From: an uncultured Draconibacterium sp.
Lineage (GTDB): Bacteria; Bacteroidota; Bacteroidia; Bacteroidales; Prolixibacteraceae
Direction of reading: 5' to 3'
Length of the DNA: 64,000 nucleotides
NCBI RefSeq assembly: GCF_963677155.1
Contig: NZ_OY781884.1
Coordinates: 4,336,501-4,400,500 of the forward strand
In this document: one piece after another, positions 1-19,755 of the stretch
Layout: every line of letters starts with the position of its first letter
Numbering within the stretch: position 1 is the stretch's first letter
Notes under the pieces: generated by a model
What the model was told of the DNA's origin: nothing
Database searches by the model: none
The model's input: only the letters and a program-made list of their open reading frames with translations
Made by a program: the position numbers and the translations under genes

Positions 1-419
1 GTAAAATTATGGGGTTTACTTGTTTCTAAGCCAGGTTCTTTCAAAAACAATTTTACCAGAAGTAAAATTTATATAAATCCATCCTAAAGAACATAAAACC
101 AAAGAAAAGAAAAATCAAGCTTTTCTACAGCCATTCTTTCTTCTTTTTACTCGCTATTCCCGGCCACAAATCCAACCGGGGTAAATTCTTCAAGAACTTT
201 CCGCTAAATCATGAAGAAGATTTTCGAAAAAGAACAAGAAGATCTTCAGAAAAGAACATGAAGATTTTCGGAAAAGATCTTGATGAATTCCGGGGAACAA
301 AAGCAACCTCCCAACAAACTGTCAGGAGGCACGAGAGGAGGCCCAATAAAACAGGTTGTTTTAAAAGAAAAATTATGGGCTTTTATTTGGGTTTAAGCTC
401 AGTTATTTGTTAACGGTTG
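1..419. other. Non-coding region with a degenerate tandem repeat
   Basis: No convincing gene is visible. A purine-rich stretch around 212-285 contains two diverged copies of GAAGATTTTCG followed by AAAAGA (starting near 216 and 260), i.e. a short degenerate tandem repeat. Nothing else in the stretch could be assigned. Confidence 0.4.
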
Positions 420-1499
420 TTATTTAATTTTTTTCATCATGTATCCATAAAGCTTATTTATTTTGGAAGTATGACTCTCATATTGTAATGGCCTATATGC
501 AATTGCTTTGTTTATATCGTCATCAGCAAGTCCAAGATGTTTTAATACCTCATCATAGTTCGATGGTTTTTCTTCAATTTTGTCTGCATCATACAATTTT
601 ATTGCTTGCTCTCTCGTAATTTCATCTCGTCTAACCATATTGCTATATTGGCATTTTCTTCGTTCGTAACCATATATCTTATTACGAATGTAATTTGTTA
701 ATGGTTCAGCAATACAATCTAAGTGTTTAGAATATTCTCGATCTGTTTCGTCTTGCCAACCTAATTCTTTTTTTATGATTTCTCCCATCTCCTTGTCTGT
801 TGGATTGTCGATAAAAAACAAAGGTCTAACTTCTCTACTAAATCTTCCTGTCTTTTTGTATATAGAATGTTGAAACATATTTAGTTTTGGAAAGATAAGA
901 AACTCGTTTATTTGTTTCTTTGTGAGGTTGTTTGCGACTTTCATTATGTATTTGAACCTTGTTATATCTTGAATTGAATCAGGAACAAAAGAGTCTTCTT
1001 CTAAAGGAGAAGTCCCATATAGAATGATTGGAACTGAAAAGTCTTTGGCAACTTTTAAAACATTTGCCTTAGTTGCAATATCACATGCCCCACAAATATC
1101 TCCTGAGTGTTTGAGCATATTTTGATAGACTTTTTTTTGAATTTCAAAATCCGGTTTGCAGAATATCTGTTTAACTCCTGTAATTTTTATTGCCCTATCA
1201 ATATTGTCTAAAGCAAGTTGGCTAAATAGACCATTGTCATAGGTCATTGCCAATACTTTAAGATTATAAACATTAACCGCTAGGTGTAAGATATATGTAC
1301 TATCTTTTCCTCCACTCAAAGGGACAAGTGCATCGTATTCTCGATTTTTATTTTTGGCTGACTGAAAAATCTCAATAAGAGCTTTTTCTCCAATCGGTCT
1401 AAAACTTTTATTTGAAGAACATAAAGAACATTCGTTTTTATCATTGAATGTTAATTGTGGATAGTTTTCGTCAAGAAGACAATTTTTGCATATTTTCAT
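420..1499 (-). CDS. PP-loop ATP pyrophosphatase, N-acetyl sugar amidotransferase-like (WbpG/PseA family)
   Basis: The 359-residue protein has an N-terminal pair of CxxC motifs (C4/C7 and C24/C27, likely a zinc ribbon), then a PP-loop SGGKDST at residues 62-68 that adenylates a substrate, and a later GDICGACD motif with C136 and C139. This arrangement fits the WbpG/PseA/WbuX amidotransferase group, which uses ammonia from a HisH-like partner to modify surface sugars. No glutaminase or O-antigen gene lies nearby, so the substrate is open. The gene sits alone on the minus strand in a cassette-like unit bounded by short core sites rather than in a polysaccharide operon, which suggests horizontal acquisition. 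Family membership is inferred from motifs; another PP-loop enzyme is possible. Confidence 0.6.
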   Translation of the reverse strand: MKICKNCLLDENYPQLTFNDKNECSLCSSNKSFRPIGEKALIEIFQSAKNKNREYDALVPLSGGKDSTYILHLAVNVYNLKVLAMTYDNGLFSQLALDNIDRAIKITGVKQIFCKPDFEIQKKVYQNMLKHSGDICGACDIATKANVLKVAKDFSVPIILYGTSPLEEDSFVPDSIQDITRFKYIMKVANNLTKKQINEFLIFPKLNMFQHSIYKKTGRFSREVRPLFFIDNPTDKEMGEIIKKELGWQDETDREYSKHLDCIAEPLTNYIRNKIYGYERRKCQYSNMVRRDEITREQAIKLYDADKIEEKPSNYDEVLKHLGLADDDINKAIAYRPLQYESHTSKINKLYGYMMKKIK

Positions 1500-1544
1500 T
1501 TAAATATCAATTTGTTATGTAGCAGGAATTTTATGTGCTACAAC

Positions 1545-1671
1545 GGCTCGAATATGCGTAGTGCGCGATTTCAAGGCACTTCACTATCAAACCGCTACGC
1601 TGTTTATTAATTGCTTTAAAGTTCAAATTTACCAAATCGCCCCTCATTACGTATATTTATTGTTACAGGGC
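1545..1671 (-). repeat. attC-like spacer hairpin following the 1673-2425 gene
   Basis: Read on the minus strand, the spacer begins with CCCTGTAACAA directly after the gene and ends with GCCGTTGTAGCAC before the next gene. Its two halves pair imperfectly: ATACGTAATG with CACTACGCATAT, and GCGATTT with AAATCGC. A TAACAA start, a CGTTR-type end and a long imperfect hairpin between them are the layout of integron attC sites. No integron integrase is in the window. Confidence 0.45.
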
Positions 1672-1672
1672 G

Positions 1673-2425
1673 TTATTCTTCCCTTTTCCAGTATCTTGGA
1701 TTAATCAGTATAGTATCTGTATCCACCATATTTCCAAAATATTTTCTTATCTGCTCTATTTCCTTTTTCTTTTCAGTATCATACGAATCTATACTAACCA
1801 AAACCATATCCTTTTTCAGTTCGATAATTGTTGCCTTCAGATTCACAGATTTCTTTTTAATCAGTCCGGGCGGAAAATGAGAAAAATCAAAACTTAATTT
1901 GTCACCAATTTTGTAAGAGTCAAATTTTAAAATATTGTTTTCTTTCAAGATTCCGTTCTCAAAAACCAATTGAACATTATTCTTGTTCTTTGTCCATTCA
2001 TATTCCTCCACAAGATATAATCCAGCGTATCTATAATAATTCGGTGCTGAATAAATCAAGAGTTTTGAGTTAAACCAATCTGCATATACGTATCCATTTA
2101 CAAATTTTGGAGAATAATCATTTTGCTTAAAGAAGTCAATGATGTTCAATTTCTGATGTGTCGAATCAACTTTTTCAACTTCTATCAGTGCAAGTTTATT
2201 ATCAATAATTTTCCATGTAGCACAATATCCTCTCCAACATCCAGTGTGGGGGAAATTAAATTCTCCGTATGAGAATGGAGATTTCTCAAATTCGAGCTTC
2301 TCAATAGGAAATGTTTTCAAATAGAAAGTGTCGTTTTCAATAACTAGCAAATCAGATATTTGCTCTGTCGGAAAGCAGTTTAATGTTGAAATCAACAATA
2401 TTAATATCGTAAGAATTTTATTCAT
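1673..2425 (-). CDS. Hypothetical exported protein in cassette-like unit
   Basis: The 250-residue protein begins with a hydrophobic signal sequence ending in a lipobox-like LISTLNC at about residues 11-17, so it is probably exported or a lipoprotein. The remainder is soluble and beta-rich in appearance with no motif I recognise. It is a single gene bounded by inverted core sites (GTTACAGGGC at 1662-1671 and GCCCAGTAAC at 2445-2454, 9 of 10 bases complementary), so the whole gene looks like one mobile unit. Function unknown. Confidence 0.6.
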   Translation of the reverse strand: MNKILTILILLISTLNCFPTEQISDLLVIENDTFYLKTFPIEKLEFEKSPFSYGEFNFPHTGCWRGYCATWKIIDNKLALIEVEKVDSTHQKLNIIDFFKQNDYSPKFVNGYVYADWFNSKLLIYSAPNYYRYAGLYLVEEYEWTKNKNNVQLVFENGILKENNILKFDSYKIGDKLSFDFSHFPPGLIKKKSVNLKATIIELKKDMVLVSIDSYDTEKKKEIEQIRKYFGNMVDTDTILINPRYWKREE

Positions 2426-2453
2426 ATGCAGTGTCTATGTTAATGCCCAGTAA

Positions 2454-2574
2454 CCGTCACTTGTATGTGGTCGGGCGGGATTTCTGAAAGAAATCGTGTC
2501 AGACCCGCAGGAAAGTGGGTACGAGGTCTGACTTGTCAGGCCGCTGAAACCCCCGCCTGCTATATTACAAATTG
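2454..2574 (-). repeat. attC-like spacer hairpin following the 2565-3197 gene
   Basis: On the minus strand the spacer starts at the AGCTAACAA overlapping the end of the 2565-3197 gene and ends at GACGGTTACTGGGC. The outer arms GGCGGGGGTTTC and GAAATCCCGCC pair with one bulge, and the inner arms GTCAGACC and GGTCTGAC pair perfectly over 8 bp. This produces a long bulged hairpin of about 120 nt, typical in size for attC sites. The spacer is visibly richer in GC than the flanking genes. Confidence 0.5.
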
Positions 2575-3197
2575 TTAGCTGCTGGGCTTTTCTTTGATTT
2601 ATAATTGTCAATCTGTTGAACTAAAATTAATAGAATGAAGAATGCCCAAATAACTCCAGATATTAATTTTAATTCTTTACTGTCATATGTAAGTCTCAGA
2701 AGAATTGTCCCCAAAACGACAAATAGTCCAAGTATAAAAAAAATCTGATATGTTTTTTGCCGATAAACAAACTTAGCCCTACGTAATTCTAAGATGATTT
2801 CTTCATCTTTTGGGAACATTTCATTTATTGTTTTTAATGATTGAATCGCTGTTTTTAGGTTTTTCCTACTGTCAGTTTGTGTAGTGGCAAACACATATTC
2901 AATATCATAAAGAAGCTTTTCAAATTTTGATGACTTTCCCTTTAATTGGTTTATAAAGTCAATTATTGGTTTTCTTTTTAGTGCAATTTGTGTCCAATGG
3001 TTACAAATACCCAGAGTTCCGTAATAGTCATTGAAAATCGATGCTATGTCTTCAATTATTTCAATGTCATCTGTTTTGAAATTAATGAATAAGTCAAAAT
3101 GTTTTTCTACAAAGTCGATGAGTGCGATATTATCTTCGTCATCGATTTTATTAAATTCTTCAAATAGTTTGTCAATATTAATATTGGAATCTTTCAT
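2565..3197 (-). CDS. Hypothetical protein with two C-terminal membrane helices
   Basis: The 210-residue protein has an acidic, helical N-terminal domain of about 145 residues and two hydrophobic segments near residues 149-168 and 178-195. It is therefore likely membrane-anchored with a cytosolic head. I recognise no family. The last codons (PAANNL, stop) lie inside the putative core site, as happens when cassette open reading frames run into their recombination site. Core sites GTTAGCTGC (2574-2582) and GCAGCTAAC (3233-3241) bound the unit as a perfect 9-bp inverted pair. Confidence 0.6.
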   Translation of the reverse strand: MKDSNINIDKLFEEFNKIDDEDNIALIDFVEKHFDLFINFKTDDIEIIEDIASIFNDYYGTLGICNHWTQIALKRKPIIDFINQLKGKSSKFEKLLYDIEYVFATTQTDSRKNLKTAIQSLKTINEMFPKDEEIILELRRAKFVYRQKTYQIFFILGLFVVLGTILLRLTYDSKELKLISGVIWAFFILLILVQQIDNYKSKKSPAANNL

Positions 3198-3230
3198 TTT
3201 GCAATTAGTTTCATTTGACTTTCCTCAGCC

Positions 3231-3300
3231 TTGCAGCTAACGGTGGTGGAACCCAAGACCTTGGGTTATTTCCCTATTGTCACTTTGTGTTATAACACCA
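3231..3300 (-). repeat. Partial attC-like site at the outer edge of the cassette-like block
   Basis: On the minus strand this stretch ends in CACCGTTAGCTGC, the core site of the 2565-3197 unit. It contains a perfect 8-bp hairpin AACCCAAG/CTTGGGTT. No gene precedes it, so it would be the remnant of the neighbouring unit or the array boundary. Confidence 0.35.
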
Positions 3301-3623
3301 ATTTGGGTGTATAAACCAAGTTTTTGTTTAAAGTAATTCATCTAATGGATTTTTAAAGTTCTTAAAATTTTGCTCAGAAACATGGGTATATATTTGAGGT
3401 TTACTGATTACAGTAACAAGATTTTACCGAAAAATAGTTATATTTTTCAATATTATCGATAAATATTCGGTGAAAAACGAGACTAATTCATTGGTGATGA
3501 ATAAGGTGTAATTTGTAAACCAACCAATTGTAAGCAATCGGAGTTAATCATTACTTGATAAAAGATAGTGGGGAAGTAAAGGTTGAAGTATAGGATCAAG
3601 AAAAAAAGCTGAGAAAGTGAAAA
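3301..3623. other. Intergenic region without a visible gene
   Basis: This AT-rich stretch lies between the cassette-like block and the XRE regulator. I see no open reading frame with a plausible start, no clear terminator and no RNA gene. Confidence 0.5.
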
Positions 3624-4025
3624 CTATTTTTTCGTAATTAATTTCTCCAATCTGTCCATCATTTCATCTTTCTCTTTCAGCATACGTTCGTAGAGCGCAA
3701 TTTTTTCTTCGTGAAGCTTCATTATTTGCTCTATTGGATGGTTGTTTGTAGTGTAACTCAATGCTATTGAACCATTATCAAATGTATTCGAAATAATATT
3801 TATCGCTTGTTCTTCATCAAAATTCTGAAAAGCTTCCACCGGGATTTTCAACGTATTGGCAATCTCGTGCAATAAAGGCAATTCAATGGTTTCTTTTTGT
3901 TCCAACTGTGAAATCTTTTTCTGAGTCCAGCCTTCACCCAGTTCATAGGCAAGAGCATCCTGTTTAATTCCCAGCATTTCGCGAAACCTTTTCACATTGC
4001 GGCCTTCATGTACTTTTGCTTCCAT
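3624..4025 (-). CDS. XRE-family transcriptional regulator
   Basis: This 133-residue protein has an N-terminal Cro/C1-type helix-turn-helix (about residues 8-65, containing IKQDALAYELGEGWTQKKISQLEQ) followed by a linker and a charged C-terminal coiled coil (EEKIALYERMLKEKDEMMDRLEKL). Such proteins usually act as dimeric repressors. It is the leftmost gene of the mobilisation block and reads away from the two plus-strand genes at 4.2-6.5 kb. Its target is unknown. Confidence 0.75.
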   Translation of the reverse strand: MEAKVHEGRNVKRFREMLGIKQDALAYELGEGWTQKKISQLEQKETIELPLLHEIANTLKIPVEAFQNFDEEQAINIISNTFDNGSIALSYTTNNHPIEQIMKLHEEKIALYERMLKEKDEMMDRLEKLITKK

Positions 4026-4203
4026 AGTTTCTTTTCGTTTTTGAGTTAATCAAAGATAAAAACAATTTTGGTTAACAAAAAGAAATGGAGGTATTAAGCT
4101 GATCCGGTAAAATATCCCCTCAATCAGTATATTTAATTGAGTAATGGATTGGATTATGTCACCCTAAGTGAATTACTTTATACTAACCTTAAAACGTTTT
4201 GTT

Positions 4204-4731
4204 ATGAAGCAAATAATACTCCCGCTGGATGCCAGTCCGTGGGCAGGCCGCGAAATCCGGTGCCCGTTCTCATTAATAGATGCCGTGTTTGATTTTGCAC
4301 AACCCGAATATTATAAGAATACCCTTACTGAACTGGTAACTTTTATGTTCAAACCAAAAATCTATCATAAAAAGTCTCCCGATCATACATTTATTTTCTT
4401 TGCGGTATTACAATCTTTACTCCGGGCAGCTTATCTGATACACTGCAAATCGGGGCAATACAAAATAAATGCTCCTAAAAAAGAATCAACAAAACTTTGC
4501 TATGGCTTCTTGAGCAGCAAAGAATTTCAAAACCCGCTGATTGTTTTTAAAAACGCCTATGCCTGCAAAAGCTTGGAAGGGATGAACCGTGCCTTGTTTG
4601 AAATGGTCAGTTACGCTTTAAATCCGTTCTCCGATTATCCTACGTGGGATTTAATAAGCCCATACATTCATATCAGTAAAATCCTCGATGCTTCCTGGCA
4701 GATTCACCAGCGAAGGGTTGAAGGAAGCTGA
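4204..4731 (+). CDS. Hypothetical protein of the mobilisation block
   Basis: The protein is about 175 residues counted from the ATG at 4204; an upstream in-frame start at 4168 is possible but gives an unlikely N-terminus. It is soluble, rich in aromatic residues, and has no motif I recognise. It precedes the long gene at 4.8-6.5 kb on the same strand by about 100 bp, so the two may be co-expressed. Nothing in the sequence identifies a function. Confidence 0.55.
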   Translation: MKQIILPLDASPWAGREIRCPFSLIDAVFDFAQPEYYKNTLTELVTFMFKPKIYHKKSPDHTFIFFAVLQSLLRAAYLIHCKSGQYKINAPKKESTKLCYGFLSSKEFQNPLIVFKNAYACKSLEGMNRALFEMVSYALNPFSDYPTWDLISPYIHISKILDASWQIHQRRVEGS

Positions 4732-4836
4732 GTCCCGGTAAATTATTCTCTTTTTAGGGATATTTTATTCCATGCCGGAATTCAATATGCCACAAACCTT
4801 TAAGAAATTGTGGACAGAACCGAAAAACCACAAGAT

Positions 4837-6477
4837 ATGAAAACGATTACTGAATCAGGTCTCTCAAAGGTGGAGAATGAAGCGTTAAGAGAAAACCTAT
4901 ACCAGTTAACCTGCGAATTCCCGATCAATTACATCTTCTATCATCCCGGAAAAACAATAGAACCGGCGCATATTACTATTATTACTTCCGGCCCCGGACA
5001 AGTTGAAAGTATAGAATCCCGGAAATGGATTCGCAACAGCAGGGATAAGAGCAATGCCTTGTTCCATGTTATTTTCCAGGAAAAGATGGATTTTGAATAC
5101 CGTACAGGTAACCCCTTTATGGCCTGCTATTGCCGGAGGTCAGCTATTATCTATCAAAAACCAGAGGAAAAAGAATGCCCTGATACAGACTGGCGCTCCT
5201 TTAAAAAGAAATTCAAAAGATACAGGGAAAACTATTACCACGACCATGATATCCTGTTATCCGAAGCCAATCGTTTTCAAAAGCTTGGTTCGCTTACCGG
5301 AATGTTTCTTTCCTTCCTGAACATTTATCAATACAATATCCGTTTCCTTGAAATACTCTGTATCGGGCATTCATTTGATTCCATGGATTTACACCAGCGA
5401 ATCAAACAACTGGCTCATTTTGTTCTCCGTATTGAAGGAGTATTTGTTAAAAAGAACGGGAAGGAATATTCCCTTGTTGCAGAACTGGAAGAAGCTAAGG
5501 AGGTAGCAAAGGGCGGGGATGAAATACGGCTCAATGATAGTTTATATGAAAGTATTGCTGAAGCGGAACTAAAATTACATAAATTAATTTCAACCCGATT
5601 TTCAGAACTCAAAAGGCAAATTAAATCCAATGCCCAGGTACAAACCAACGTTATTGAGCCCGACCCTTCATCAGTGGATAAAGAGTTGTCTCAAATAATC
5701 GAACAGATATTGAAAATACACCCGGTTGAAGAAATCTATTTGTTTCACCAAACCCAAAGTTATCACACGACCACCTATTTTCTGTTGCTAATTGGTGAAA
5801 GGTTGGGAACAGAGACCCTAAGCCGGATTCAGCAATCTGTAAGTGCAAAATCTGAAAATAAACTTACAGTTGTACTGTTAGGGCATCGCAGGTTTGGGAT
5901 TCAAAGCAACCTGTTCTATCAGCAGACTTTCTTCAAAAAAATAATGGTACCGGAAAATCTAAAGTTTCAATCGACTCAGAACCATCCTTCCATTCACTGG
6001 GAAGAGCCATATATCTCTGAGTATCCTGACCTGGATTATTATTGTAATTCAACAATTAACCTCTCTGCGCAGTATTTTGTTTTAAGGAATCATTCGGAGA
6101 AAGGCAATACCGAGGGCATGTTTGATTTGTTTAGCAAATCGGTACTTAGAATATTCAGGACATTTGTGTTTTCAAAACTAAGTTACCTGCCCAATTATTT
6201 ACCGGCATTTAGTCTTTGGAAGTTGTGCGTGTTTGCAGAACCGGAACTTGAGAAAGTAGAATTTTTGTTTGAAAAATGTAGTGGAGAAAACTTTTTCAGA
6301 GAACTGGATAATCACAATCAGTTTTCCCATGGAATCTCTCTGCTATCAGGAGAAAAGCTACTCATCATGGATGAAATTCTCAGATTGTTATTGAAAGAAC
6401 TCGAAGTTACTTGCACCAAAATAAAGGATATGAATACAGGTCAAATATTGACAGGATTGGAGGCTGGTGAAGATTGA
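4837..6477 (+). CDS. Hypothetical protein with two similar halves
   Basis: The protein is about 546 residues from the ATG at 4837; a GTG at 4810 would add nine residues. Two regions resemble each other: one near residues 30-110 (YIFYHPGKT..HITIITSG..LFHVIFQ..) and one near 290-370 (EIYLFHQTQS..YFLLLIGE..LTVVLLGHRR..). Both carry the pattern of a small alpha/beta domain with a strand, a His-containing turn and a second strand. This suggests an internal duplication, perhaps of a nucleotidyltransferase-like fold, but I cannot confirm catalytic residues. No homologue recognised. Confidence 0.55.
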   Translation: MKTITESGLSKVENEALRENLYQLTCEFPINYIFYHPGKTIEPAHITIITSGPGQVESIESRKWIRNSRDKSNALFHVIFQEKMDFEYRTGNPFMACYCRRSAIIYQKPEEKECPDTDWRSFKKKFKRYRENYYHDHDILLSEANRFQKLGSLTGMFLSFLNIYQYNIRFLEILCIGHSFDSMDLHQRIKQLAHFVLRIEGVFVKKNGKEYSLVAELEEAKEVAKGGDEIRLNDSLYESIAEAELKLHKLISTRFSELKRQIKSNAQVQTNVIEPDPSSVDKELSQIIEQILKIHPVEEIYLFHQTQSYHTTTYFLLLIGERLGTETLSRIQQSVSAKSENKLTVVLLGHRRFGIQSNLFYQQTFFKKIMVPENLKFQSTQNHPSIHWEEPYISEYPDLDYYCNSTINLSAQYFVLRNHSEKGNTEGMFDLFSKSVLRIFRTFVFSKLSYLPNYLPAFSLWKLCVFAEPELEKVEFLFEKCSGENFFRELDNHNQFSHGISLLSGEKLLIMDEILRLLLKELEVTCTKIKDMNTGQILTGLEAGED

Positions 6478-6506
6478 AATTAAGAAATTAAATAATATGG
6501 GGTAAT

Positions 6507-6791
6507 TTAAATAAACCAATTAACAACAGACCCCAATAAAACGCTCACAATCACCCATAAAAACCACTTTGGAATACCTACACTTTTCTTTAGTACTTGT
6601 TTATGATCCACAAGAAGTTGCTCCAACTTGTCAGTGTTCAGATCAAACTTAATTTTAGCAGTTTTTAAATGATGCAATTGCCTGGCGATTTCGGGAGCAA
6701 CTTCCTTGATGTCTTTAGTTGTTTGCTCCAGCAGTTCAATTTCGGCAGTTAGGATTTCCAGTAGTTTTTGTTGTGACAAATTTTTTCTCAT
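6507..6791 (-). CDS. Small membrane protein adjoining the relaxase
   Basis: This 94-residue protein has a helical, charged N-terminal portion and a single C-terminal transmembrane segment (about residues 75-93). It begins 4 bp after the relaxase stop codon, so it is translated in the same mob operon. Small C-terminally anchored proteins often follow relaxases in Bacteroidota mobilisable elements; a role in relaxosome docking is inference only. Confidence 0.65.
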   Translation of the reverse strand: MRKNLSQQKLLEILTAEIELLEQTTKDIKEVAPEIARQLHHLKTAKIKFDLNTDKLEQLLVDHKQVLKKSVGIPKWFLWVIVSVLLGSVVNWFI

Positions 6792-6795
6792 GGCA

Positions 6796-7584
6796 CTAAA
6801 GTCTGAATCGTGGTTTTTTTGTTGATTTTATTCTGGGGCGTTTTTGCCTTTCCTGCGCGGTGTAGCTTAAAGCATCAAAACTTTTCTGAATAAGTTTTTG
6901 CAGGTTGCCTGCACTAAACGAACGATGAACAGAACTTGCTTTAATGGATTCATTTCCAATTTGGAATCTAACACCTACTACTTTTTCATCGGAAGCCTGT
7001 TTCAGATGCATTTGAATACCGAATGAATTCATGTGTTCAGCATATTCAAAAATATTCGCTGGCTTCTGCCCTAAAACTTCATTATGCGCATTTATGATCT
7101 GACGGCTCAACCGTTCTTCTTTTGCCTGCTGAATTTCCTTTGCAGTGGTAAATCCCCAATCTTTGGCAATGCTTTCAGCAATACGCTGGACCTTTTTGCT
7201 GATGAAATGGTCTTTGTAGGCTTTCCCTTCAGAATTAATCCGGTTCACAAAAATATGCAGGTGTCTGTGGTCTTTATCTGAGTGCAGAAAAGAGATGTAT
7301 TGATGCTCTTTCAGTTTCATCCGTTCCAGAAAATCATCGGCAAGTTTTGCATAATCATCGTTTAAAAGTTTAATCCCATCCGGGATTGAAGGGCTTAAAA
7401 CCACAGAAAAAGAATTGCGTTCACACCTTGCATTCAGGTTTTGAAATACCCGGAACTCCTGTGCAATTTCTTTTCCGGTTTTACCTGCAACATTATGTCG
7501 GCTGATTTCGATTGCCTCTTTCTTGTTTTTTGCATAGTTGATGGCATTGGAAACATGCGATATACTTTTAGCCTTCCCTATCAT
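6796..7584 (-). CDS. mobB: MobB-type relaxase/mobilisation nuclease
   Basis: The 262-residue protein matches the relaxase fold. An early Tyr lies in INYAKNK (about residue 18), the likely nicking residue. A metal-binding cluster HSDKDHRHLHIFVNRI lies around residues 99-114, containing the HxH and NR signatures. It would cut the transfer origin and lead the strand into a recipient, using a conjugation apparatus supplied in trans. Its start ATG overlaps the end of the upstream RHH gene by 4 bp (7581-7584), a translational-coupling arrangement. The length is typical of short Bacteroidota Mob relaxases, with no helicase domain. Confidence 0.85.
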   Translation of the reverse strand: MIGKAKSISHVSNAINYAKNKKEAIEISRHNVAGKTGKEIAQEFRVFQNLNARCERNSFSVVLSPSIPDGIKLLNDDYAKLADDFLERMKLKEHQYISFLHSDKDHRHLHIFVNRINSEGKAYKDHFISKKVQRIAESIAKDWGFTTAKEIQQAKEERLSRQIINAHNEVLGQKPANIFEYAEHMNSFGIQMHLKQASDEKVVGVRFQIGNESIKASSVHRSFSAGNLQKLIQKSFDALSYTAQERQKRPRIKSTKKPRFRL

Positions 7585-7895
7585 TGTTCAAATTTTTTAA
7601 GGTGCGCTTTTATCAGCTTAATCACTTCTTCCAGTTCAAGGAGAATGGTATCATTCTTCCTGAAATAATCACTTTTAACAAGGTTACTGATGACTGTAAA
7701 ATTCCGGTGAAAAATGTGCAGGTTGTTATAAACTTCCAGTTCTTCGGATGAAAATCGCAGGGTAACTTTCATGTTCAGTGATGCACGCCGTGCAAACTCA
7801 CTGGTACTTAACCCACAATCCTTGGCAGCCATGGCGATGGCTTTCTTTTCAATATTATTTACCCTGAATGATATATACCTTGTACGTGTATTCAT
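7581..7895 (-). CDS. mobA: MobA/MobC-type relaxosome accessory protein
   Basis: This 104-residue protein starts with a ribbon-helix-helix-like segment (RTRYISFRVNNIEKKAIAMA..GLSTSEFARRASL) found in plasmid mobilisation proteins that bind oriT and help the relaxase open the nic region. It is the first gene of the minus-strand mob operon, immediately downstream of a candidate oriT at 7937-7987, and overlaps the relaxase start by 4 bp. Confidence 0.8.
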   Translation of the reverse strand: MNTRTRYISFRVNNIEKKAIAMAAKDCGLSTSEFARRASLNMKVTLRFSSEELEVYNNLHIFHRNFTVISNLVKSDYFRKNDTILLELEEVIKLIKAHLKKFEQ

Positions 7896-7936
7896 ACCCC
7901 TGTTTTAAGCATTAAACATTACCTGCGATTTTCTTC

Positions 7937-7987
7937 CTTTGCGAGTTTAGGAGCAAAGCAAGAGTGCCAAAAGTGCAACGTTGGCAC
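7937..7987. other. Candidate oriT of the mobilisation module
   Basis: Two adjacent inverted repeats lie in the only real gap between the mob operon and the primase: CTTTGC (7937-7942)/GCAAAG (7953-7958), and GTGCCAA (7964-7970)/TTGGCAC (7981-7987). Hairpins just upstream of mobA are the usual setting of a relaxase origin. The nic position itself is not identifiable by eye. Confidence 0.4.
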
Positions 7988-8000
7988 CTCTTGAAATAGC

Positions 8001-8885
8001 TTACCACACAGACCTTCGCTGACGTTGGATCGGAGCGGTCAATAGCCCATTTAAATCCTTTTTACCTTCATAAAGCGCAGACATATCGACACTGTTCGAT
8101 AAGTCGGACAATAACTGCTTTGTCGCCCTTTTTCCAGCTAAATCATTATCGAGATAAAGACCAACTTTTGGATAATTTTGGGCAATATTATGGATGCGGT
8201 TGATAAACGAAACAGAATTCAATACCAAAAAATCTGATTGGTGTGGTAAGCCAGGATAAAGCATTAACAAACTAAAAAAATCAAACATGCCTTCGGTAAC
8301 ACTCAACAATTGTTTACCTGTAGTGAAATAGGAAAAGTCTTTTGGTGCTGCAGCATTTTTATAATACGGATTTCGAAGTTCCCAGCCTCCCGAAACATTC
8401 ACCAAACCTAAAGCGAAGTATCGTTTTTGATTCATCGAATAATGAACCTGACTGGCAAATCGTGCTGCTGTTTTTATATCTATTTTTCTTTCCGATAAAT
8501 ATTTGATCAAAGCCGGGTGCCGAATGGGGAGGATCTTATCGATCTGGATTTTCGGTTCAGGTGCTAATGCAACCAAATTATTCTGCTGTTGAAAATAGAA
8601 AGATGGAATGTTTTTAGCCAGAATCCTCAGAGCATCACTAACACTGCAGTTGTTATTCATTTCAATAACCAGGTCGATAATGTTTCCACCTTTGCCAATT
8701 CCATGATCGTACCAGCGGTTAAGAACTTTGGACACCTTAAATGATGCGTCATTTTCCTTTCTAATCGGACTAAGGTACCAGGCTGAATGTTGGTTTTCTT
8801 TTACCGGTGAGTATCCGGATCTTTTCAGAAATTCTGTTGTCGGAATTTCTCTGGCTTTATCACATTGTACAATAGAAAATCCCAT
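8001..8885 (-). CDS. DNA primase-like protein (CHC2-type N-terminus, Toprim domain)
   Basis: The 294-residue protein has an N-terminal region resembling the primase zinc-binding domain (about residues 15-90, including WYDHGIGKGGNIIDLV) but with poorly conserved cysteines. A Toprim domain follows, with VTEGMFDFFSLL near residue 195 and LYLDNDLAGKRA near residue 245, which supply the acidic metal-binding residues. Such proteins prime lagging-strand synthesis on transferred single-stranded element DNA. It lies 3 bp after the excisionase-like gene and before the mob operon, the standard order in Bacteroidota mobilisable elements. Confidence 0.8.
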   Translation of the reverse strand: MGFSIVQCDKAREIPTTEFLKRSGYSPVKENQHSAWYLSPIRKENDASFKVSKVLNRWYDHGIGKGGNIIDLVIEMNNNCSVSDALRILAKNIPSFYFQQQNNLVALAPEPKIQIDKILPIRHPALIKYLSERKIDIKTAARFASQVHYSMNQKRYFALGLVNVSGGWELRNPYYKNAAAPKDFSYFTTGKQLLSVTEGMFDFFSLLMLYPGLPHQSDFLVLNSVSFINRIHNIAQNYPKVGLYLDNDLAGKRATKQLLSDLSNSVDMSALYEGKKDLNGLLTAPIQRQRRSVW

Positions 8886-8888
8886 AAC

Positions 8889-9191
8889 TTATTTCTTCCT
8901 GTTTTCTGATAGCATTCTGTTGAACTCATTTTCCAATTCCAGTTCTTCTTTAGATATTCCCATCAACCAGAGGTCGATGTCCTTTTTGTAAAAGAATTTT
9001 TGTCGGATATTGGCATTGTTCCCGGTAGGGATCAGTTTTTTACTGAGCAGCTTGTAAATTTTGCTTTTTGATAGCCCGGTGTACTGAGCCAGTTCTTCAA
9101 CATTGAAAACGGTTTTGTTTTCTGCCAGTAGGGTTTTGATTTGTTTTAATTCGTTTAGAACTTGTTTGGAAATAAATGCTTGATTTTCCAT
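8889..9191 (-). CDS. Excisionase-like helix-turn-helix protein
   Basis: The protein is about 100 residues from the ATG at 9191; in-frame ATGs at 9200 and 9230 are alternatives. A MerR/excisionase-type HTH covers about residues 28-80 (NVEELAQYTGLSKSKIYKLLSKKLIP..FYKKDIDLWLMG). These proteins bind the ends of integrated elements or regulate the primase/mob genes. It is directly upstream of the primase on the same strand. Confidence 0.75.
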   Translation of the reverse strand: MENQAFISKQVLNELKQIKTLLAENKTVFNVEELAQYTGLSKSKIYKLLSKKLIPTGNNANIRQKFFYKKDIDLWLMGISKEELELENEFNRMLSENRKK

Positions 9192-9319
9192 AGGTGACAT
9201 ATTTTTAATGATTAATGACGCTTGATGCATGAAAACTTCATCAGCAAATATGTAACTGTATGTAGCAATAAATCAAGAGGGTAATTTGAGTTACGGGGGA
9301 ATTACGGGAGAAATACCGT

Positions 9320-9988
9320 CTATCGAAAAAGTATTTTCTGAAAGGCCTTTATGTTTTCAGAAAATTCCGTTTCACTTTCATTCACAAACTCTGAGAACCG
9401 CGAGTTCAAACTCGTCCTTTTAACTTCTGAGCCGTTCAATGTGAAGGTTGATTCAATGAATTTAAAGAGTTGCTCTTTACGCTCTTTTTTGAAATCTCTA
9501 ATTCCACCATCAATAAGCAGGTGAAGAATGCGAAGCAGCTTTTTATAATCAGCTGCAGCCCGATTGTCTGAAACCAAACAAAAATTGATTTTGCTTTTTG
9601 TTTCAAGTCCATTTAATACCAGATTTATATTTTCCCGATCGTGTTCTGAGAAGCCCAGGCTTGGTAGAACGATCCCGTTTAAATTACTTCTGGTAAACTG
9701 CAAACGACTTGAAGGTACTTGTTTGGATAATTTTCGTGCTTCATGCAGCGATCCGATGAAAAGTAAAATCAAAAACAATCCAGTTATGCTTATGGCAGAG
9801 TAGAGGATAACATGGTGGACTGAAAAGCCCATACCCCAGAATCCAAAAAGTAGGATCGTAAAACAAAAAAGAAGGATAAAAAAGACTGTAGTATTGTGGT
9901 TGCGTAATATACGAATATTGAAGATCCACCGGAGTTTTCGGTTGAATCGGAAAAAAAGTAGTCCTGATTTCTTGATTATTGTTTCCAT
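9320..9988 (-). CDS. Hypothetical two-helix membrane protein
   Basis: The protein is about 222 residues from the ATG at 9988; the 10015 start would add an improbable N-terminal tail. Two hydrophobic segments lie near residues 33-52 and 58-80, followed by a soluble C-terminal domain of about 140 residues with no recognised motif. It reads in the same direction as the excisionase/primase/mob genes but is separated from them by about 130 bp. Function unknown. Confidence 0.6.
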   Translation of the reverse strand: METIIKKSGLLFFRFNRKLRWIFNIRILRNHNTTVFFILLFCFTILLFGFWGMGFSVHHVILYSAISITGLFLILLFIGSLHEARKLSKQVPSSRLQFTRSNLNGIVLPSLGFSEHDRENINLVLNGLETKSKINFCLVSDNRAAADYKKLLRILHLLIDGGIRDFKKERKEQLFKFIESTFTLNGSEVKRTSLNSRFSEFVNESETEFSENIKAFQKILFR

Positions 9989-10219
9989 AGCAGCCGCTCT
10001 AAGTATAAATTCCATGCAACATCAATACTATCTTCTTGTTTTCAACAGCATTGATAATTAGCTGATTAAAAGTAAAGAATCTGATAAATGCAATCAAATG
10101 AAAATCCGCGTTGGCGTATGTTTTGGGCTTATTTGGCTGTATTTGGCTTTCGAAATGTTGAAGAACATAGAATGACTCTGTGTATCTGGTAGTTTTTGGT
10201 GGTTTTTATTGGGTGATTT

Positions 10220-10239
10220 TGTTGTACCTATGTTGTACC
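10220..10239. repeat. Paired TGTTGTACC repeats outside the left att site
   Basis: TGTTGTACC occurs at 10220-10228 and 10231-10239, an 11-bp repeat spacing. The pair lies about 50 bp from the att core, matching the position and spacing of the paired CTTGCAAATA repeats at the other end of element B. It may be an arm-type integrase site belonging to a different, neighbouring element. Confidence 0.45.
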
Positions 10240-10252
10240 CGTACAAATAAAA

Positions 10253-10280
10253 AAGGAGTTAAACTTTCGTCTAACTCCTT
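10253..10280 (-). terminator. Rho-independent terminator beside the left att core
   Basis: AAGGAGTTA (10253-10261) pairs with TAACTCCTT (10272-10280). On the minus strand the stem is followed by a run of six T. It sits where a terminator for a minus-strand tRNA-Pro ending at 10292 would be expected. Confidence 0.7.
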
Positions 10281-10291
10281 GATTTTTAGTG

Positions 10292-10339
10292 GTCGGGATA
10301 CCAGGATTCGAACCTGGGACCCCCTGCTCCCAAAGCAGG
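10292..10339. repeat. attL of element B (tRNA-Pro 3' fragment)
   Basis: This is a 48-bp exact copy of 49862-49909, covering tRNA-Pro from the anticodon stem to the 3' end. Left of it the sequence returns to the outer mobilisation block; right of it (from 10340) it no longer matches a tRNA. Confidence 0.9.
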
Positions 10340-10440
10340 GTGAATACTGGTTTTATATGAATTGATATGATGTTAATATGCCAGTTTTTCAGTGTTTTAC
10401 GATTTTTGCAATTTCATATTCTTACAGAAAAAACCGATAT

Positions 10441-10465
10441 TTACTTGCAAATAACTTGCAAATTT
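10441..10465. repeat. Integrase arm-type repeats, left end of element B
   Basis: Two CTTGCAAAT units spaced 11 bp apart lie immediately before the integrase start. An almost identical pair, in the same orientation, lies at 49797-49817 near the other end. Matching short repeats near both ends are expected for integrase arm-binding sites and could also let the integrase repress its own promoter. Confidence 0.6.
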
Positions 10466-10473
10466 TTTCACAT

Positions 10474-11703
10474 ATGGGATTAACGGTAAAACTCCTTCTA
10501 GACAAGCGAAGACAGCGCAAAGACAAAAGCTACCCTCTGGTTATGCGCGTTGTGATTAACTCTAAAAGTGTGCAAATTCCTTCCGGCTATACCTTGCCGG
10601 AAAATGACTGGGATAATAAAAACCAGAAAATCAAATCGTCATGTAACCAGTTTGACAATTTAACACGGGTCAACAACCTTTTATCCAAGAAGAAATCCAA
10701 GGCGTTTGATGTGCTTACGAAACTGGATGAAGAAGGGGAGTTGGACTTCATGCCTATGAGCGAGGTCAAGGCCGCCATCCTTGGCGAAAAAGCCAAAGGG
10801 AAATCCTCCGTGTTTGATTTTATCAATCAGCTTACCGAAGAAATGACAACGGCAGGAAAACAGGGTAATGCCCGTGTTTATAAAATGCTGTCAAACCGAC
10901 TGGAAGCGTTGACGGGCGGTAAGGCAATCAAATTCGACAACATAAATTACGCATTCTTACAACGCTTTGAGAATGCCCATTTTGCCAATGGCGGCACCAA
11001 AGGCGGCTTGAGTGTTTATATGCGAACGCTACGGGCGATTTACAACAAAGCCATAAAAATGGGTGTTGCCAACCAATCCCGTTATCCGTTTAAGGATTAC
11101 AAAATAAAGAACGGTACGCCTGAACGTAAATCCCTAAGCGAGGAAGAGTTTCAAAAGCTATTAGAGGCAGACCTAAAGCCGAACTCGCCTTTGGAGCGAT
11201 CCAGAGAGTATTTTCTGGCCTCATTCTATCTGCGTGGTATGAACTGGATGGATATGGCCTTGCTCCGTCTTGGTGATATTGAAGGCGATTTAGAGCGCAT
11301 CCGCTATACCAGACAGAAAACAGGGAAGGGGTTTAATGTGAAAATCAATCCACGGCTAAAACCGATACTGGAAAGATTTATTGACGGGCGCACGGATAAA
11401 GAAGAGTTTGTATTCCCGATACTGAATTTGTCCTACTCGCCCGAACACTATCCCACGGCGATTTTGAACAAGCGCAAGAAACTCAATGGCTACCTTAAAA
11501 CCATTGCAAAAAATATCGGAATTTCTCCATTTACGATATACACGGCACGGCATACCTATGCGACCATGGGAAAACGCAAAGGCGTACCCACTGCTATCAT
11601 TCAGGAAAGTCTGGGGCATACGACCGAAGCCGTCACCCAGAACTATCTGGATTCTTTCGGCAATGACATTATCGATAAATACGATGACTTGATTATGGAT
11701 TGA
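10474..11703 (+). CDS. int: Tyrosine recombinase (integrase) of element B
   Basis: I start the protein at the ATG 10474 (MGLTVKLLLDKRRQRKD..), because the upstream extension would run through the arm-type repeats. It is about 409 residues, normal for Bacteroidota phage-type integrases: an N-terminal arm-binding beta domain, a SAM-like core-binding domain (about 105-200), and a catalytic domain. Visible catalytic elements are the first Arg in YLRGMNWMDM (about 252), the KTGK beta-turn, the box ARHTYATM (about 358), LGHTT, and the nucleophile in QNYLDSF (about 389). Position next to attL shows it drives integration into tRNA-Pro. Confidence 0.92.
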   Translation: MGLTVKLLLDKRRQRKDKSYPLVMRVVINSKSVQIPSGYTLPENDWDNKNQKIKSSCNQFDNLTRVNNLLSKKKSKAFDVLTKLDEEGELDFMPMSEVKAAILGEKAKGKSSVFDFINQLTEEMTTAGKQGNARVYKMLSNRLEALTGGKAIKFDNINYAFLQRFENAHFANGGTKGGLSVYMRTLRAIYNKAIKMGVANQSRYPFKDYKIKNGTPERKSLSEEEFQKLLEADLKPNSPLERSREYFLASFYLRGMNWMDMALLRLGDIEGDLERIRYTRQKTGKGFNVKINPRLKPILERFIDGRTDKEEFVFPILNLSYSPEHYPTAILNKRKKLNGYLKTIAKNIGISPFTIYTARHTYATMGKRKGVPTAIIQESLGHTTEAVTQNYLDSFGNDIIDKYDDLIMD

Positions 11704-19566: not shown

Positions 19567-19596
19567 AACTCACTCTTGGAGTTTTTCAGATTTTCT

Positions 19597-19755
19597 CCTC
19601 TCTTTCCCGATTATTGGTTTAATTTCGGCATAGGCTCTTACGCCGGAGTGTCAATGGACTGCCCGCGCCGGTTCCCGTGTTGTCCATGACAGTCCGTCTT
19701 TTGCAAGAGCCTGTTGGTCTGCCTCAACCAATAACCTTGTGAAAGAGAGGCAATC
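19597..19755 (+). promoter_or_regulatory. Long structured leader that pairs with the ribosome-binding site
   Basis: Nested perfect stems close the whole leader: CCTCTCTTTC (19597-19606) with GAAAGAGAGG (19741-19750), TTATTGGTT (19611-19619) with AACCAATAA (19726-19734), and AGGCTCTT (19632-19639) with AAGAGCCT (19705-19712). At the apex, ATGGAC/GTCCAT and GGACTG/CAGTCC are alternatives. The outermost stem contains the Shine-Dalgarno AGAGAGG of the gene starting at 19756. Confidence 0.7.

Follow-up and report, generated by a model that had tools for sequence, protein, structure and literature searches.

The question raised by this locus is whether a row of unrelated single genes, separated by hairpin-forming spacers, may be an integron cassette array in a bacterium of the class Bacteroidia, and which recombinase would serve it. 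The window, i.e. the whole stretch of DNA analysed, is 64,000 nucleotides (nt) long and comes from an uncultured Draconibacterium sp., whose 5.27 Mb genome is a single contig (C1); it corresponds to C1:4336501-4400500. A sequence-only reading had proposed an integron-like cassette array in Bacteroidota, and this proposal is sustained by core complementarity, by covariation within the hairpins, by the alignment of attI sites and by the repeated linkage to one integrase family. The window very probably contains the head of a chromosomal integron-like platform, in which a linked recombinase would act on attC-like sites and on attI.

Layout of the array

The head of the array lies at window positions 420-3408, minus strand, where an integrase relic is followed by an attI-like site and by three cassettes, among which two intact attC-like sites are found. 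R1 denotes the covariance model described below.

3331..3408, minus strand: relic comprising the final 26 codons of an integrase gene (..QIYTHVSEQNFKNFKNPLDELL*), with 73-77% identity to its counterparts in five relatives
3241..3330, minus strand: attI-like site adjoining the relic, aligned with the attI of five relatives and in the general attI alignment
2574..3241, minus strand: cassette A, start GTTAGCTGC (3233-3241), end GCAGCTAAC (2574-2582)
2446..2582, minus strand: attC-like site of cassette A, R1 score 108 bits, fold z -2.3, member of the R1 alignment
1662..2454, minus strand: cassette B, start GTTACTGGGC (2445-2454), end GCCCTGTAAC (1662-1671)
1536..1670, minus strand: attC-like site of cassette B, R1 score 84.8 bits, single-sequence fold at shuffle level
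420..1544, minus strand: cassette C, start GTTGTAGCA, 3' core and attC missing or disrupted
1..415, minus strand: stretch preceded by an AACAAA core; its part 342-415 corresponds to an IS110-type element end
3230..6528, minus strand: module upstream of and including attI, found in two genome copies, 93-94% identical, with different cassettes behind each

The three single genes first noticed on the minus strand are indeed there. The gene of cassette A (2565-3197, 210 residues) has its stop within the attC, and that of cassette B (1673-2425) encodes 250 residues; neither product has a Pfam match at E 0.001. Cassette C encodes, at 420-1499, a WbuX-type N-acetyl sugar amidotransferase of 359 residues (NCBIfam TIGR03573, 203.9 bits, cut-off 203.2). 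The statement that no integrase is in view needs correction, since the relic, matched by tblastn (E 5e-8, small local database) and by profile (C1:4339822-4339899, i.e. window 3322-3399, E 5.4e-5), lies directly beside the array, and so does an attI; cassettes start at the G^TT of the latter, the G of GTT being position 3241.

At the far end of cassette C, no complementary 9-mer, with up to one mismatch, was found in window 1-1244, minus strand: the pair GTTGTTA/TACAAC, initially read as its borders, is no pair. On the 3' side of this cassette, window 342-415 (minus) shares 91% identity over 75 nt with the terminus of an IS110-type element; in genome G034 this element lies within an attC-like site. 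Window 1-411 is in turn 89.5% identical to C1:5127160-5127547, both stretches being preceded by such a core. Beyond the left edge of the window a second attI, of the same type as the one next to the intact integrase, lies between the third window cassette and the remaining array (locus L010, ~19590-19700, minus). In the whole cluster, 22 R1 matches, none of them on the plus strand, extend over 34 kb between C1:4338946 and 4305207. At gathering scores, Rfam models find only two tRNAs in the window, and nothing in loci L047, L010 and L179.

Core complementarity

In integrons, the R boxes that pair with each other are those at the two ends of one cassette, rather than those on either half of a site as it stands in the array, and the 7-nt core follows the consensus GTTRRRY. 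In the window, GTTAGCTGC and GCAGCTAAC, at the ends of cassette A, are complementary throughout, and GTTACTGGGC and GCCCTGTAAC, at those of cassette B, at all positions except one; the core pairs originally seen around these two genes are thus the signature of a cassette.

This signature was evaluated on 91 cassettes and 118 sites, defined by consecutive R1 matches less than 3.5 kb apart with both cores located; 22 of the 23 sources contributed matches. Only AAC and GTT were fixed when locating the cores, so that positions 5-9 were free. Comparing each cassette start with the reverse complement of its own end, agreement at positions 4-9 is 0.96, 0.92, 0.91, 0.90, 0.92 and 0.95; by position 10 it has fallen to 0.44. 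Between the two cores of a single site, likeness is limited to GTT(R), agreement at positions 5-9 being 0.23-0.38. For cores of the same cassette, an average of 5.04 out of the 6 positions 5-10 agree, versus 1.89 after permutation (maximum 2.35 in 2000 permutations). The first nine bases of a cassette, GTTRNNNNN, are therefore the reverse complement of its last nine.

A model-free search for chains of 9-nt cores, in which each link is counted on both strands, was compared with block-shuffled sequence. It returned 176 links versus 9.0 in 19 loci of the genus (L049, L052 and L053 left out), 98 versus 6.4 in 14 of the 38 named Bacteroidota loci, 8 versus 2.0 in the whole window, and 6 versus 1.6 in 20 other loci. 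No links were found in six archaeal loci containing relatives of the integrase (0.8 shuffled), nor in eight loci with canonical IntI, which at ~3 kb are too short to be informative. A simple CGTTA pattern was discarded as a marker, being no commoner than chance (85 seen, 105 expected).

The 91 cassettes are organized as expected for an integron: one gene plus one attC, head to tail, with complementary start and end cores. Their longest open reading frame (ORF) runs in the direction of the array in 81 cases and in the opposite one in 3, while 7 have no ORF of 60 residues. The core sequence departs from the integron consensus, only 3 of the 91 cassette starts fitting GTTRRRY.

Structure of the attC-like sites

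The R1 model was built from 15 sites of this genome. Both window sites are among them, so that independent support comes from the wider set: 108 of the 112 R1 matches in integrase loci belong to genomes outside the model set. RNAalifold proposes for the 15 sites a 4-bp R stem, an internal loop, a 6-bp bulged L stem and then a longer stem. Double changes occur in 13 of the 19 pairs, and 95.1% of the paired cells can pair, versus 72.4% in shuffled alignments; the covariation score is 0.564 versus 0.178, a value reached in none of 500 shuffles, and pairing falls to 31-39% when partner columns are slid by 1-3 positions. The sites are thus imperfect attC-like hairpins, with R and L stems conserved in structure.

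The attC-type nature of the spacers, as first read, finds support in covariation; the expectation that each would fold better than shuffled sequence holds for one of the two only. Folded alone as minus-strand DNA, site 2446-2582 is equalled or bettered by 5 of 200 shuffles (z -2.3), and site 1536-1670 behaves as shuffled sequence does. Because single-sequence folding gives a mixed result, the structural claim rests on covariation.

The integrase and its attI

An intact integrase gene is found elsewhere in the genome, at C1:1149812-1150945, followed by an attI and by a cluster of 12 sites (C1:1151755-1167514). It encodes a tyrosine recombinase of 378 residues, in which R230, K258, H320, R323, H346 and Y355 fall in columns invariant in 20 out of 20 integrases; we take these to be the catalytic residues of tyrosine recombinases. 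The ~40-residue insert specific to IntI (I2 region) is absent from this protein, and was seen in none of the 20 aligned integrases. The spacing between the KGxKDR and HxLRH motifs is 100 in canonical IntI (8 measurable of 11) and 58-60 in the Bacteroidia set (52 measurable of 59 rows); relative to PDB 2a3v, the insert region counts 18 residues versus 60. The proteins of this genome and of D. orientale, scoring 211.1 and 198.3 bits, miss the 265-bit cut-off of the TIGR02249 model; with the XerA-type model NF040815 (cut-off 220 bits) they score 222.2 and 217. By the field's own definition, the predicted integrase is not an IntI.

An extra domain is predicted at the N-terminus (residues 1-95, e.g. 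L088:8001-8285); its likeness to HARP (SMARCAL1) and XPB is weak and partly discordant, and comparison of whole-integrase alignments scarcely probes it. Rows dropped from the tree ahead of counting were IntI_L160 and IntI_L164 (fragments), L112-L116 (over-long matches), L051 and L088 (near copies) and L110 (partial). In L112-L116, from Anaerophaga, Alkalitalea and other Bacteroidota, integrase matches span 1.4-1.6 kb, possibly because of tandem or interrupted genes. A stop within the integrase gene was found in L103 (Eudoraea, 8001-9062) only, where it replaces the catalytic tyrosine, with an array of at least 4 sites alongside; most other stops checked are natural ends.

Downstream of the integrase stop codon, the 21 loci of the genus have ~90-130 nt which are alike within subgroups and end in ACGTT or AGTAGTT. 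When these are aligned together with the second copy of this genome, likeness halts directly past GTTR: each of the 21 integrase genes has a neighbouring attI with a single point of insertion. Twenty of these loci have integrase, attI and array in co-linear order; the other, L053, is a short contig with no sites. All 112 sites in these loci lie downstream and on the integrase's strand, which means that the integrase is read towards the array. Among the matches listed outside this genome (149 integrase and 137 site rows), 28 of the 32 integrase-site pairs within 20 kb show the same arrangement.

Distribution in Bacteroidia

At least 117 R1 matches at E<=0.1 are present in the genome under study (150 of 931 candidates scored): 103 of them fall in 15 clusters of two or more, with gaps up to 8 kb, and 85 of the 88 pairs of adjacent sites within clusters are on one strand. 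Among 61 relatives, sites (E<=1e-5) were detected in 50 and an integrase homologue (E<=1e-40) in 40.

In 247 Bacteroidia genomes, up to 13 site candidates (threshold E<=1e-4) and up to 7 integrase candidates (threshold E<=1e-55) were scored per genome; 129 feature sites and 130 the integrase: 95 have both, 34 sites only, 35 the integrase only, and 83 neither (Fisher p 3e-12). Sites occur in 87 of the 136 genera sampled. Among the named taxa that carry the integrase are Draconibacterium, Marinilabilia, Marinifilum, Winogradskyella, Aquimarina, Zunongwangia, Psychroflexus and Eudoraea. Within 80 named loci, sites were found in 18 of the 38 labelled Bacteroidota and in none of the 42 others; these sites share the strand of the integrase and, except for L099:2589, lie downstream. 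Related recombinases of other phyla have no R1 sites nearby, nor were any found in 25 whole genomes of such phyla; the same holds for the archaeal relatives of the integrase.

Exchange and content of the cassettes

The module bearing relic and attI occurs twice in the genome, at window 3230-6528 and at C1:5121193-5124553. Homology stops at about the insertion point; beyond it, only a site and an insertion sequence (IS)-like stretch match. The two relics (window 3322-3399 and C1:5124384-5124461) consist of the same last 26 codons before attI, so that the duplicated module carries an attI without a working integrase.

Over 1291 nt, integrase plus attI of this genome and of G034 are 88% alike. 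Past attI, matches longer than 200 nt are limited to a 1.3-kb IS110-type element and one cassette, which is 98.5% identical over 1008 nt and has other neighbours in the two genomes. In L061, a non-IS cassette of 940 nt is found twice, with its attC, in one array, 100% identical over 1065 nt and bordered by CC^GTT; its protein has no Pfam match. In L048 (8179, 14868) and L055 (9195, 15836), identical cassettes of 486 and 492 nt, with no ORF of 60 residues, are present twice per array. We do not count the pairs c53/c82 and c6/c41 as evidence for exchange, as they carry IS91-type and rve-type transposases; homology between c53 and c82 ends at the cassette borders.

Ten proteins from arrays of this genome were scanned in each of two libraries. 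They include an AAA_15 ATPase with defence-type matches, a PDDEXK nuclease with matches to candidate defence models (PDC-S26), a Tdi1-type immunity domain resembling type VI secretion system immunity proteins, and an esterase-like protein.

Mobile elements are found within the arrays. The IS110-type element (L047 8455-9731 and C1:1169526-1170825) encodes a DEDD transposase of 324 amino acids and inserts just within attC-like sites, past the R'' core plus AAA; its end sequence follows different cores at four places, including window 342-415/1-411 and L182 7160-7547. The known IS1111-attC group, of the IS110 family, likewise places a DEDD/IS110-type transposase (PF01548, PF02371) in arrays, but the host sites are here of the Bacteroidia type. 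Transposases of the IS91 type (Y2) fill whole cassettes in two genomes, the borders being those of cassette cores (L057 15225-16889; L064 6337-11116, reversed strand), with tandem repeats in L064.

Adjoining the window array, positions 6507-11703 contain relaxase-like and mobilisation-like genes, so labelled from their translations, and, at 10378-11703, an unrelated tyrosine recombinase (Phage_int_SAM_5, Arm-DNA-bind_5). These genes suggest an integrative mobilisable element.

Evaluation of alternative explanations

We take as established the anatomy of the arrays, the covariation and core complementarity, the linkage, the precise borders, and the duplicate and shared cassettes. Several observations weigh against an active platform served by the linked recombinase. 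All the evidence is comparative. Site 1536-1670 does not fold better than shuffled sequence (z +0.17; 106 of 200 shuffles as good). Four of the 32 integrase-site pairs within 20 kb, in G384, G390 and G555, are not arranged on the same strand and downstream, and in G051 integrase and sites are divergent. Past attI, L047 and the second copy of this genome have a related first cassette, which makes the break of likeness incomplete there. The Fisher p is overstated, since species within one class are not independent; moreover, 34 of the 129 site-bearing genomes lack the integrase and 35 of the 130 integrase-bearing ones lack sites, at the thresholds used. Finally, genes 1 and 3 of the window were not found in other arrays in 61 genomes (gene 2 was not searched): gene 3 (E<=1e-10) is present in one, its own, and gene 1 (E<=1e-30) in two, its own and one with a 30% homologue. 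The same counts settle a doubt voiced in the sequence-only reading, that gene order might be conserved in relatives: it is not.

A canonical integron, whose IntI has the additional domain, might have built the arrays in trans, the linked recombinase being a bystander such as a Xer-like resolvase. Integrons have indeed been reported from Bacteroidota (PMC8618304, PMC9668308, PMC2426708); one source mentions only In0 in its earlier survey and one complete Salinibacter integron (PMC9024848). Canonical IntI exceeds the cut-off in 84 of 296 genomes of the phylum as defined by GTDB, and R1 sites, one to eight each, are present in 6 of the 21 such genomes tested. The host phylum is thus less foreign to integrons than had been supposed, although just one of the 84, G097, is labelled as belonging to the class of the window, and it has no R1 match at E<=0.01. 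The lack of a TIGR02249 match over the cut-off in the genome under study weakens the bystander explanation, and it is a non-canonical integrase that adjoins attI and array in 20 of 21 genus loci: we consider a canonical enzyme acting from elsewhere very unlikely.

The least probable explanation is that the spacers are hairpins of repeated mobile elements (repetitive extragenic palindromes, miniature inverted-repeat transposable elements or transposon ends) lying between genes, with no exchange of cassettes. The many clusters and the 117 or more sites would fit such elements, as would the IS110-type, IS91-type and rve-core transposases within arrays and the two repeated cassette pairs of 486 and 492 nt devoid of an ORF of 60 residues. 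Transposon ends, however, would share their sequence, whereas the 9-nt cores differ between cassettes and match within one; nor would they account for the single strand of 85 out of 88 adjacent clustered sites, or for a directional linkage to attI and integrase. It is somewhat easier to imagine, if still improbable, that the arrays are the fixed remains of an ancient integron with no present activity. Both the window and C1:5124384 retain just 26 codons of integrase, and the Eudoraea gene of L103 has a stop at the position of the catalytic tyrosine; yet an intact integrase, together with its attI and 12 sites, is present in the same genome, the cassettes behind the two attI modules, themselves 93-94% alike, differ, a cassette 98.5% alike in two species has different neighbours, and 100% identical duplicates lie far apart in one array.

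Proposed mechanism and relation to known systems

According to the reading we prefer, that of an integron-like platform, attC-like sites would be recombined with attI by a tyrosine recombinase whose gene lies just upstream of that attI and whose family is widespread in the class Bacteroidia, each cassette consisting of a gene and one site of about 120-137 nt. The cut would fall between G and TT of GTTR, leaving TTRNNNNN at the cassette start and its complement at the end, so that the free circle could pair them as a 9-bp R stem, followed by an internal loop, a 6-bp bulged L stem and a variable loop. The recombined form would be a folded single strand and the linked integrase the acting enzyme, with the N-terminal domain perhaps taking over hairpin recognition from the missing IntI insert. 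As the integrase of the window array is truncated, the intact copy at C1:1149812 would act on it, if at all, in trans.

The closest known system is the sedentary chromosomal integron, which likewise has an integrase gene, a single attI insertion point at G^TT, long one-direction arrays of one-gene cassettes, palindromic sites in which R and L stems are accompanied by bulges and an unpaired spacer, and core complementarity within the cassette. In contrast, the Bacteroidia integrase lacks the IntI insert, has about 95 extra N-terminal residues and is read towards the array; the R core is 9 nt long and mostly not GTTRRRY; and the sites of this chromosome are spread over 15 clusters of two or more. 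Taken alone, the window array would be filed among clusters of attC sites without integron integrase (CALIN); it differs from these in carrying an attI and the remains of an integrase gene, and in sharing its genome with an intact member of the same integrase family. Unlike XerA and archaeal Xer (NF040815, PDB 4a8e, 5hxy), the Bacteroidia integrase is linked to attI and arrays and has a further N-terminal domain. Judged on its anatomy, the predicted system is a new variant of the integron, which has most of the defining features and an integrase other than IntI.

Significance

According to PMC7790495, cassette capture requires the additional domain of IntI, which no other protein has; direct proof that this domain made single-strand recombination possible is, by the same account, not available, since IntI1 ceases to function once the domain is deleted. 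Several surveys have selected or checked integrases by this domain (PMC2426708, PMC8352920, PMC9668308). No title or abstract on Bacteroidia cassette arrays, or on integrases without the additional domain, was found in a search including no preprints and few subscription papers, which is not proof of absence.

A wider proposal, attractive but tentative and somewhat more likely to fail than to hold, is that Bacteroidia have an integron lineage of their own, in which cassettes are captured as folded single strands without I2, the hairpin being read by an N-terminal fork-binding domain of the HARP/XPB type, and many of whose cassettes have been missed. If so, they would have been missed because surveys pick integrases by the additional domain, and capture without I2 would imply either two origins of hairpin cassette recombination or one older than I2. 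With a natural cassette system whose linked integrase lacks the additional domain, the necessity of this domain could be tested directly, and the known pool of mobile genes would grow considerably.

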